64,000 nt of DNA, taken from Oscillospiraceae bacterium (GTDB lineage: Bacteria > Bacillota > Clostridia > Oscillospirales > Acutalibacteraceae). Every line of letters starts with the position of its first letter. Position 1 is the first letter of the stretch. The DNA lies in NCBI GenBank assembly GCA_012520505.1, contig JAAYOC010000040.1, positions 1 to 64,000 on the forward strand. The letters run 5' to 3'. The notes under the pieces are model-generated. The model did not search any database, was not told where the DNA came from, and saw nothing but the letters and a program-made list of their open reading frames with translations. Shown here in pieces: positions 54,077 through 56,650 of the stretch. The translations under genes and the position numbers were made by a program.

Positions 54077-54457
54077 TTACGGTAAATATTCTACAATAAC
54101 TGCATCCTTCTTACACTTAATGGCGCAATATCCACACTTAATACAAAGTGTTTGGTCAATTTTATGAACCTGCTTAACTTCACCTGAAATAGCATCGTTA
54201 GGACAATTTTTTTTACAAAGTGTACAACCAATGCAATTTTCTTCATTAATTGTGACCATTCGAATTTTCTTTTGACCGGGACCGGGGCTAATTGCAGATA
54301 CAGGACAAATGTCCTGACATTGACCACAGCCTATACATTTTTCTTCTGGAATGTCAAATCTTTTTTCCTCTACAATTTCTACTATAACATCAAAAGGACA
54401 TGCAAAAGCACAACCTCCGCATCCTACACATTCATTTTTATCAATAATATAAGCCAT
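54077..54457 (-). CDS. Four-cluster [4Fe-4S] polyferredoxin
   Basis: 126 residues with four complete CxxCxxCxxxC motifs: Cys10-13-16-20, 41-44-47-51, 75-78-81-85 and 105-108-111-115. This makes it an eight-iron pair of double-cluster ferredoxins. The start is ATG 54457 after AGAGGT; the longer frame overlaps the MoaD-like gene and is not ferredoxin-like. It lies in an operon with an aldehyde ferredoxin oxidoreductase, so it is the likely electron acceptor or small subunit of that enzyme. Confidence 0.93.
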   Translation of the reverse strand: MAYIIDKNECVGCGGCAFACPFDVIVEIVEEKRFDIPEEKCIGCGQCQDICPVSAISPGPGQKKIRMVTINEENCIGCTLCKKNCPNDAISGEVKQVHKIDQTLCIKCGYCAIKCKKDAVIVEYLP

Positions 54458-54470
54458 TTTATGTACCTCT

Positions 54471-54713
54471 TCATCCGCCAGAAGCCGGAGACATAAGCCA
54501 TACTTCGTCCCCGTCTTGAAGGTCATATTTTGCTTTTGTAACACGAGTACCATTTATAAAAACAATTGCATCATTAAATGAAAATTTTTCAGCACCAGGA
54601 GCACTCTTTATGTTAAGCAAATCAAATGTTTCCTGAAGAGTCTTAGCCTCGCAATCAAACTCTTTAACGCCAGAGCCGAGTCTAATTACACCAAACATTT
54701 TAACTTTTACCAT
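54471..54713 (-). CDS. MoaD/ThiS-like sulfur carrier protein
   Basis: 80 residues with the ubiquitin-like beta-grasp pattern: VKVKMFGVIRLG, FNDAIVFINGTRVTK, DLQDGDEVWLMSPASGG, ending in the diglycine that is thiocarboxylated in MoaD and ThiS. Placement directly after the aldehyde oxidoreductase suggests service to its tungsto- or molybdopterin cofactor. Its ribosome binding site contains a run of eight G residues (54730-54723), unusual and slippage-prone. Confidence 0.9.
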   Translation of the reverse strand: MVKVKMFGVIRLGSGVKEFDCEAKTLQETFDLLNIKSAPGAEKFSFNDAIVFINGTRVTKAKYDLQDGDEVWLMSPASGG

Positions 54714-54722
54714 AATCGCTCT

Positions 54723-54730
54723 CCCCCCCC
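54723..54730 (-). promoter_or_regulatory. G8 tract in the MoaD-like ribosome binding site
   Basis: AAGGGGGGGGAGAG precedes the MoaD-like ATG by about seven bases and abuts the TAA of the oxidoreductase gene. Length changes of this run would alter Shine-Dalgarno spacing. Confidence 0.8.
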
Positions 54731-56650
54731 TTAATATGCATATGGATAATCCTCAACCGGAGGAATATCAATTTTAAGTCTCTCAAGAACCTTTCTTGTT
54801 GGTGCACCATTTTTCCATTGTCTGTTTTTATAGTAAGAATTAAGCATTACATCAAGTGGCACTTTAGTCATTGGATTGTTAGGGTCCTGAAGAGTTTCTG
54901 TAAGTTTCTTTGGTAGTTTATCAGCACCTGGTTTTTGACCAAGCACCATATTAGCAACACGTTCAATATTATAACCACGCTCACCAGCTACAAGGAATTT
55001 ACCAAGATTCATTTTCATACCGGTAGCAAGCTTAATTGCTCTCGTATGAGGAATCAAAGGAATATATAGCTGAAGTGCGATACCATAGAGGTTCATAAGT
55101 TTAACAATAGGACCAAGGTATGGCATTACCCAAGTTACAACCTTGGTAATTATTGCATTAGGATGATCAAATACATATCCTGGGAATATAGGATATGATG
55201 TGAACAGGCAAAGACCTGCTGCTGAAATTGCTTCCATAAGGTTCTGGAACATTACGCAAAGAGCACCCTTACCTCTTGGTGTAAGTGAATCAATATCAAG
55301 TCCAAGACCCTCAACAAACACAAGATAACCTGCGTTAAGGTGACAACCACCGCGGTTAGAAGTCGCATAGCCAAGACCCTGTCCTACTGCACGACGCGGT
55401 TCGTAAGCTGAAAGTTCCATACCTTTTGATTGAATAGCAAATTCCATTCCACCAAATTTTTCAGCCATTTTCTTTGAACCGTTAGCAAGTTCATCACCTA
55501 CACCTCTACGGTGTGCAATATCATGAATCATTTGAGTAATATTATCATTCTTTCCAAATTCAAGACCACTATCAAAAAATCCCTTTTCATTTAGTTCCAT
55601 TGCAAAAGCAATAGTACCTGCTGTTGAAATGGTATCCATTCCCATTTCATCAATTTCATAGTTCCATTCAATAATTTTTTGAAGATCATTGTTCATAAGG
55701 TTTGGACCCATAAGCCCAATAACCTCAAGTTCAGGACCTTTAATTTCTTTGCCTTCGTGCATACAACGACGAGTGCATTGCATTACGCAAGTTGTACATC
55801 CGCTATTACGAACAAGTTTTTCTTCGGCTAAAGTTTCACCGGATACCATATCAAAATCATCAAACTTGCCATATTCAAAGTTCTTTGTAGCAAGAAGACC
55901 ACGAGCTTGCATCGGGCTTACAAGACCAGCCGTACCAAGAACTGATAACTGTCTACCTGAAATTGGATGCTTTCTCATATTTTTAGTCCATTTTTTACTG
56001 AGCTTTCTAAGTTCCTCTTCATATGCAATCATAGGATGTTTAAAGCCTTTTGCAGTAATTGCTTTAATCATCTTATCACCGAATACTGCACCGACACCAC
56101 CACGACCGGAACAACGTTCACCTGATAATACTGCTGCATAAAGAACTTTATTTTCACCTGCAGGTCCAATTACAAGTTTTGCGGTACCTTTTGGAAGTGC
56201 CTCCTGTGCAGGAGAACATTCCATACCCCAAATATCTGAGGCGTCCAAGAATTCTACATTTTTCTGCGTAATGTGAATTCTTGTTGGGGTAGTCGCTCTA
56301 CCGGTAATAACTGCACCATCATATCCGCAACGTTTTAACATTAAACCAAAATCGCCACCACTGTTACTTGAAGTAATAAGACCAGTTAAAGGTGAAATTG
56401 TTGAGATGTTGAAACGTGAAGATGATGGAACACCACAGCCTGTCAAAGGACCGGTTGTAATAACAATCCAGTTATCCTCATCAAAAGCTGTCATTCCCTT
56501 CTTGATATGACGATAAAGAATTTCGCCGGCCATAATTTTACCGCCGATAGTTCTTTCTCTATCTTCATCAGACCATGGGAATTCTCCAAACGTCTTATTT
56601 GTAAGATCAATCTTTAAAACCTTACCCATGTAACCAAAATAACGAGACAT
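54731..56650 (-). CDS. Tungsten/molybdenum aldehyde ferredoxin oxidoreductase
   Basis: 639-residue member of the AOR family, which oxidises aldehydes to acids with a bis-pterin W (or Mo) centre and one [4Fe-4S] cluster. It begins YMGKVLKIDLTNKT; pterin-binding stretches SGGDFGLMLKRCGYDGAVITG-like (split at 110-130) and GRGGVGAVFGDKMIKAI are present; cluster cysteines are in GCTTCVMQC near residues 288-296 with a later Cys in GLCLF. A downstream MoaD-like protein and polyferredoxin complete a likely AOR module. It may detoxify or ferment aldehydes with ferredoxin as acceptor. Confidence 0.93.
   Translation of the reverse strand: MSRYFGYMGKVLKIDLTNKTFGEFPWSDEDRERTIGGKIMAGEILYRHIKKGMTAFDEDNWIVITTGPLTGCGVPSSSRFNISTISPLTGLITSSNSGGDFGLMLKRCGYDGAVITGRATTPTRIHITQKNVEFLDASDIWGMECSPAQEALPKGTAKLVIGPAGENKVLYAAVLSGERCSGRGGVGAVFGDKMIKAITAKGFKHPMIAYEEELRKLSKKWTKNMRKHPISGRQLSVLGTAGLVSPMQARGLLATKNFEYGKFDDFDMVSGETLAEEKLVRNSGCTTCVMQCTRRCMHEGKEIKGPELEVIGLMGPNLMNNDLQKIIEWNYEIDEMGMDTISTAGTIAFAMELNEKGFFDSGLEFGKNDNITQMIHDIAHRRGVGDELANGSKKMAEKFGGMEFAIQSKGMELSAYEPRRAVGQGLGYATSNRGGCHLNAGYLVFVEGLGLDIDSLTPRGKGALCVMFQNLMEAISAAGLCLFTSYPIFPGYVFDHPNAIITKVVTWVMPYLGPIVKLMNLYGIALQLYIPLIPHTRAIKLATGMKMNLGKFLVAGERGYNIERVANMVLGQKPGADKLPKKLTETLQDPNNPMTKVPLDVMLNSYYKNRQWKNGAPTRKVLERLKIDIPPVEDYPYAY

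Follow-up and report, generated by a model that had tools for sequence, protein, structure and literature searches.

A predicted tungsten-dependent aldehyde:ferredoxin oxidoreductase operon with a linked sulfur carrier in an Oscillospiraceae bacterium

A three-gene set on the minus strand of a 64,000-nucleotide stretch of Oscillospiraceae bacterium DNA (assembly GCA_012520505.1, contig JAAYOC010000040.1, positions 1 to 64,000; the window) most probably encodes a tungsten-dependent aldehyde:ferredoxin oxidoreductase composed of a catalytic subunit, WorL, and a polyferredoxin subunit, WorS (a Class II WOR), together with a linked sulfur carrier, WorX. On the basis of sequence comparison and structure modelling, we place the probability of this reading at roughly 0.8. 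The initial annotation had proposed, at 54077-56650, an aldehyde oxidoreductase (AOR) with a diglycine MoaD-like carrier and a four-cluster ferredoxin as dedicated partners; all three genes are found there, running from 56650 to 54077 in the order WorL (AOR), WorX (MoaD), WorS (ferredoxin), and the identification is supported by Pfam domains, by the C-terminus SPASGG and by four cluster motifs:

54731..56650, minus strand: WorL, AOR-family catalytic subunit, 639 amino acids (Pfam AFOR_N/AFOR_C)
55028..55189, minus strand: clade-specific hydrophobic insertion within WorL, about residues 488-541 (alignment, model)
54471..54713, minus strand: WorX, MoaD/ThiS-like sulfur carrier, 80 amino acids, C-terminus SPASGG (PF02597)
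54077..54457, minus strand: WorS, 4x[4Fe-4S] polyferredoxin, 126 amino acids from the likely ATG (four Fer4 stretches)

Because the spacers are short (17 nucleotides between AOR and MoaD, 13 between MoaD and ferredoxin), and because AGAGG, a Shine-Dalgarno-like sequence for the ferredoxin gene, stands immediately after the MoaD stop codon, the three genes likely form one operon and would be transcribed together. Promoter-like sites are not in excess (13 observed vs. 14.5 in shuffles). The longest ferredoxin open reading frame begins at 54553, within the MoaD gene, and probably reaches too far upstream, the likely true start being the ATG at 54457.

WorL matches both AOR domains above cut-off (AFOR_N, 4.8e-60; AFOR_C, 1.8e-104). 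With what we take to be the cluster-ligand positions of Pyrococcus furiosus AOR as reference, its [4Fe-4S] ligands are C285, C288, C292 and C481. An AlphaFold2 model of WorL built from 24 sequences (predicted local distance difference test score, pLDDT, 80.5; predicted template-modelling score, pTM, 0.87) has as its top fold matches the electron-bifurcating AOR 9mqx (Z 42.9), P. furiosus AOR 1aor (42.6) and Clostridium autoethanogenum AOR 9g7j (42.2). The residues T243, E313, Y427 and H448 of P. furiosus AOR, described in passages of a 2026 WOR classification (PMC13328260) as the second shell of most aldehyde-oxidising members, are all present in WorL, as T240, E309, Y416 and H437. E313, H448 and the four cluster cysteines are invariant in 54/54 aligned rows, which include one copy of the window protein and two rows of a second AOR type (AOR2, below). 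We conclude, from the domains, the cluster cysteines and the second shell, that WorL is by sequence a member of the AOR/WOR family.

According to the proposed mechanism, WorL would carry a tungsten-bis-pterin and one [4Fe-4S] cluster and would interconvert an aldehyde and its carboxylate, in either direction, while electrons would pass, within a predicted WorL-WorS complex, through the four WorS clusters to or from cellular ferredoxin. WorX would be activated by a MoeB/ThiF-like E1, encoded on contig C36 of the same genome, and its thiocarboxylate would provide the sulfur of the cofactor's dithiolene.

A conserved module and a clade-marking insertion

The segment between WorL residues 486 and 543 comprises 58-61 residues in 53 AOR rows, vs. 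15-16 residues in the other 36 rows (one of which has 28); the 89 rows remained from 121 after removal of AOR frames shorter than 520 amino acids and of near-identical copies. The insertion thus defined, about 42 amino acids long and placed after the fourth cluster cysteine, was not seen in the other AORs compared, and the 53 rows that bear it form one clade in a quick maximum-likelihood tree (Shimodaira-Hasegawa-like approximate likelihood-ratio support, SH-aLRT, 100; locus L066 long-branched). In the model, two helices (500-521 and 534-543) are joined by a low-confidence loop.

The initial annotation had remarked on a hydrophobic stretch near residues 505-545 that might dock on a membrane or partner. 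The stretch exists, at about 488-541, and is a genuine insertion that marks the clade. A transmembrane role, however, is unlikely because the segment is only moderately hydrophobic: over 19 residues, the Kyte-Doolittle mean peaks at 1.55, a value almost equalled elsewhere in WorL (residues 464-482, 1.54), and a transmembrane segment was rejected on that ground. Docking of the enzyme on a membrane through the segment is, in our judgement, very unlikely: hydrophobic character, a net charge of +1 to +7 in 24/24 aligned members and the predicted helix 500-521 speak for it, but the maximum over the 24 members ranges from 0.79 to 1.63, and the operon contains no membrane-subunit gene. A lid, a pocket wall and a docking face are the candidate roles for the insertion.

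The module recurs across the clade. Among the 53 clade loci, window included, a MoaD-like frame stands by the AOR in 48, every one ending in GG, and a ferredoxin is nearby in 42 (with four motifs in 41 of these but two in that of L083), which argues that the arrangement is not due to chance; in three loci the sequence stops less than 50 bp from the AOR, so that MoaD is present in 48 of the remaining 50. An E1-like gene is found in 29 (27 on the AOR strand and two on the opposite strand, the TcdA-like gene of the window being one of these two), MogA in 29, TupA in 27 and an alcohol dehydrogenase (ADH) in eight. Broken or missed AOR frames (e.g., L018/L122, L050, L055, L063 and L064) stand outside these counts.

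A scan of named genomes returned 47 loci, nearly all titled uncultured Clostridia or families thereof; many of them stem from samples of goat, sheep, buffalo, yak or horse. The nearest relatives, 'Candidatus Limimonas' among them, show about 80-82% identity. An AOR match occurs in 12 of 100 genomes sampled from the family, 11 being of the window's kind (AOR1; E < 1e-100), and any AOR match occurs in 51 of 391 genomes sampled from the class. The fetched class-sample matches that fall inside the clade are from G407, G393, G283 (two copies) and G481, the last a single contig of 4,422,837 bp with two AOR genes. Many family members carry a tungsten island with its genes divided between the strands: MoaA, MoaC, MoeA-PBP, MoeA and TupCBA make up one half, and MogA, E1, AOR, MoaD and ferredoxin, encoded on the opposite strand, the second. 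The Mo/W riboswitch family RF01055 is present between the two halves, upstream of TupA, in 4/4 such islands scanned:

L117:7917-8071: RF01055
L118:7899-8049: RF01055
L119:11915-12071: RF01055
L120:11396-11542: RF01055

Relation to known systems

Passages of Iyer et al. 2006 (PMC1779556) describe MoaD strictly adjacent to AOR, often with MoeB and with a 4Fe-4S ferredoxin among the neighbours, and propose a role in tungsten-cofactor synthesis. The window operon shares both the gene association and the proposed role but, unlike those neighbourhoods, has no internal E1; a nearby same-strand E1-like gene is found in 27/53 clade loci. Passages of the 2026 classification (PMC13328260) define Class II as WorL plus a four-cluster WorS and call the ThiS-like gene WorX. 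The subunit set, the cluster count and the linked ThiS-like gene are alike in the window, and by those definitions its predicted products constitute a Class II WOR with WorX. The same passages mention WorX for Class I and Class IV; in the window WorX sits between WorL and WorS. WorS has four CxxCxxCxxxC motifs and begins MAYIIDKN, with no N-terminal extension, so that on inspection it lacks the Tat signal or transmembrane part of a Class V WOR.

Compared with solved enzymes, WorL has the fold and cofactor residues of the P. furiosus (1aor) and C. autoethanogenum (9g7j) AORs, the solved chains of which align without the insertion; passages of PMC10413684 describe the P. furiosus enzyme as having no polyferredoxin subunit. 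Aromatoleum aromaticum AorABC (8c0z) has, like the window, a catalytic subunit and a four-cluster polyferredoxin, but no FAD-subunit gene is present among the window neighbours searched, and the C-terminal helix of about 20 residues that builds AorA filaments (described in passages of PMC10413684) seems to be missing in WorS, which ends 11 residues beyond its last cysteine. The window WOR may belong to clade 81, none of whose members, according to passages of PMC13328260, has had its physiological function characterised; Eubacterium limosum has WOR81 as well as WOR87. The operon is ordinary in kind and its identification well supported; it comes from a poorly characterised clade that the insertion sets apart. 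Less expected are the existence of this strongly supported insertion-marked clade, the WorS-ADH fusions, and the failure to detect MoaE in 11 of 15 genomes (below). Gut anaerobes commonly have WOR-type tungsten enzymes, yet a role is known for few clades.

Cofactor genes, sulfur carriers and the metal

Genes for tungsten or molybdenum cofactor synthesis, the absence of which the initial annotation would have taken as evidence against its proposal, are present in the genome of the window (assembly of 1.69 Mb, 94.8% complete): moaA, moaC, moaE, mogA, two moeA-type genes and a moeB-like gene. Contig C36 carries genes for MoaA, MogA, MoeA, MoaC, a MoeA-PBP fusion (one of the two moeA-type genes), a MoaE-family protein (34 bits, above cut-off), a MoeB-like E1 and an XdhC-like protein, and thus provides both MoaE and a MoeB-type E1. 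A search for tungstate transporter genes, which had been suggested at the same time, returned TupABC-type genes on contig C67. The TupA proteins of L009:1006-2118 and L036:2423-3445 are circular permutations: the terminal segment of an ordinary TupA (L040, residues 218-284) is found near the N-terminus (own residues 74-151), before the main domain.

Contig C36 also carries a second AOR cluster and, upstream of and beside the cofactor genes, a lipoprotein-like protein of 1010 amino acids that matches the Oxidored_molyb domain PF00174 with 58.2 bits over profile positions 62-164 of 169:

L005:1412-5253 = G000:C36:21412-25253: second cluster, with MoeB-like E1 (divergent), MoaD2, AOR2 and polyferredoxin
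L004:2965-5997 = G000:C36:2965-5997: Oxidored_molyb (sulfite-oxidase-type) protein, PF00174

In AOR2, of 676 amino acids, His replaces the catalytic Tyr, and its polyferredoxin has a longer tail; FGGY kinase, malic enzyme and pyruvate:ferredoxin oxidoreductase genes lie near the cluster. Shorter similar-looking proteins lie upstream of the Oxidored_molyb protein, one of which (L004:3-563) has no Pfam match. The molybdopterin oxidoreductase domain PF00384 and the xanthine-oxidase-type domain PF20256 were not found in the genome. The idea that the AORs are its only Mo/W-pterin enzymes was nevertheless dropped, the Oxidored_molyb protein by the cofactor genes being a candidate cofactor binder.

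WorX matches PF02597 above cut-off (2.4e-07) and ends in GG. Because only two ThiS/MoaD genes were found in the whole genome, one beside each AOR, the two MoaDs may be shared, each serving both AORs and also the Oxidored_molyb protein. The description of the MoaD-like partner as dedicated is therefore supported in part: it is linked to the AOR, and exclusive use by that AOR is plausible.

Whether the enzyme might use molybdenum rather than tungsten bears on the same genes. The Oxidored_molyb fold is best known from molybdenum enzymes, and its presence in the cofactor locus led us to raise slightly the weight of this alternative, which we still regard as quite unlikely. Passages of PMC13328260 ascribe a preference for molybdenum to Class V WORs, YdhV among them, but WorL is not YdhV-type in sequence (PRK09849, 160.7 bits vs. 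a cut-off of 868), and the search for tungstate transporter genes gave a TupA-type transporter in the genome and near the module in 27/53 loci. Tungsten is accordingly the metal that we assign, provisionally, to WorL.

Alcohol dehydrogenase linkage, substrate and genomic context

In four relatives the WorS-type ferredoxin is fused to an iron-containing ADH (Pfam on L036 only):

L036:8181-9824: WorS-ADH fusion
L037:8215-9825: WorS-ADH fusion
L034:4819-6504: WorS-ADH fusion
L065:8146-9828: WorS-ADH fusion

In three further relatives an ADH gene adjoins the module, after AOR and MoaD in L111 and L113 and before AOR in L114; the eighth ADH, in L060, is 3.3 kb distant and is not counted as linked. 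This fusion or adjacency points to occasional sharing of the aldehyde with an alcohol, and WorLS perhaps works with alcohol dehydrogenases. In the family sample, a close ADH is present in 10/11 AOR1-positive genomes vs. 19/89 others (p = 1e-5, kinship ignored; cut of 350 bits for a close ADH picked after a gap in the scores was seen). Reduction of acids to alcohols by AOR and ADH is known in Thermoanaerobacter and acetogenic clostridia (passages of PMC10816221). The ADH linkage in relatives suggests the same acid-aldehyde-alcohol chemistry, with the differences that four of them have polyferredoxin and ADH in a single fused protein and that the genome of the window has no close ADH. Full-text literature searches, at listing level, turned up no published WorS-ADH fusion, the term 'alcohol dehydrogenase' is absent from the text of PMC13328260, and a structure model of a fused protein was uninformative (pLDDT 38.5, four sequences). 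If the clade works with ADHs, tungsten may serve bacteria of the herbivore gut in the reduction of acids to alcohols or in alcohol oxidation.

Several results weigh against the reading of the operon as a tungsten-dependent WorL-WorS enzyme with WorX. WorX scores 35.7 against NCBIfam moaD_arch (cut-off 49.5), and comparison with solved structures returned no relative of it at E 0.1. A nearby WorS is lacking in L053, L058, L060, L062 and L081/L114, and no MoaD is present in the flank examined in L062 and L066. TupA is the only NCBIfam match of the transporter gene at E 1e-20, but the score is 139 vs. a cut-off of 400; RF01055, at gathering threshold, was found in none of the window, L004, L005 and L009, which cover the cofactor and Tup loci of the genome, nor in L036, where TupA is arranged differently. 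Because the Oxidored_molyb protein lies in the cofactor locus, the two MoaDs and the genes for cofactor synthesis may have users other than the AORs. ADH linkage occurs in 7/53 clade loci vs. 2/36 other AOR loci (p = 0.30; control loci with shorter flanks, mostly 1-1.5 kb), and the genome of the window is the sole AOR1-positive exception in having a distant ADH only (264.6 bits, 37%). By the comparison of loci, ADH linkage as a special trait of the insertion clade was rejected; ADH proximity is not clade-specific, and the fusion alone may be peculiar to it.

The lack of enrichment and the distant ADH of the genome also favour a serious contender, to which we give somewhat less than even odds: that WorLS serves detoxification only, oxidising food- or amino-acid-derived aldehydes to acids, uncoupled from ADH. 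Passages of PMC13328260 report such a role as proposed for several characterised WORs. Furthermore, no ADH gene adjoins the operon in the window, and none was seen in the same-family stretches L116-L125 (in L122, gene picking missed the AOR itself). Against uncoupled detoxification stand the four fusions, the three adjacent genes and the frequency of close ADHs in AOR1-positive genomes.

No characterised member was identified in the deep clade that the insertion marks, and passages of PMC13328260 place sulfonate (ASOR) and benzoyl-CoA reductase enzymes in the WOR family; both points would fit a substrate other than a simple aldehyde, with the insertion shaping the pocket for a large apolar molecule. 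We consider this unlikely, since WorL has all four of the second-shell residues typical of members that oxidise aldehydes (as listed in passages of the same source), and the AORs that lead the fold comparison are aldehyde-oxidising.

MoaE (PF02391) was found in 4/15 genomes with this AOR and was undetected by Pfam in the other 11 (e.g., G481, G098 and G015), of which eight are at least 95% complete, with G481 a single contig. A profile of the four MoaE proteins gave only one match in the 11 MoaE-negative genomes, of 25 residues at E 0.62, and MoaD and other cofactor genes are seen in many islands of these genomes. MoaE may have been replaced, or may have diverged past recognition. One tentative proposal, which we consider doubtful, is that WorX and E1 in this clade constitute a tungsten-specific dithiolene-sulfur system, mostly MoaE-free, in which another protein (an unrecognised one, or WorX with a further protein of the island, e.g., MOSC or MogA) would complete molybdopterin synthesis. 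The enzyme served would be a carboxylate-aldehyde-alcohol module with a polyferredoxin fusible to ADH, and the genome of the window, with MoaE beside its second AOR cluster, would represent a different or older state. If MoaE is truly dispensable in most of these genomes, there would be an unrecognised alternative for one step of a near-universal cofactor pathway.

FAD-dependent genes lie divergent from the AOR in L036:3501-5869 and L037:3525-5869; the L036 gene matches glycerol-3-phosphate oxidase type 2 below cut-off, and by inspection a similar-looking gene is present in L033 and L065. The neighbours of the window operon encode a GtrA-like membrane protein, a PAP2 phosphatase and a homocysteine methyltransferase-like protein, the last lying with TcdA-like and TtcA-like genes in the flanking segment 56796-59211. 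A TtcA-like and MetH-like pair is likewise found upstream of the AOR in L026-L030 and L039.

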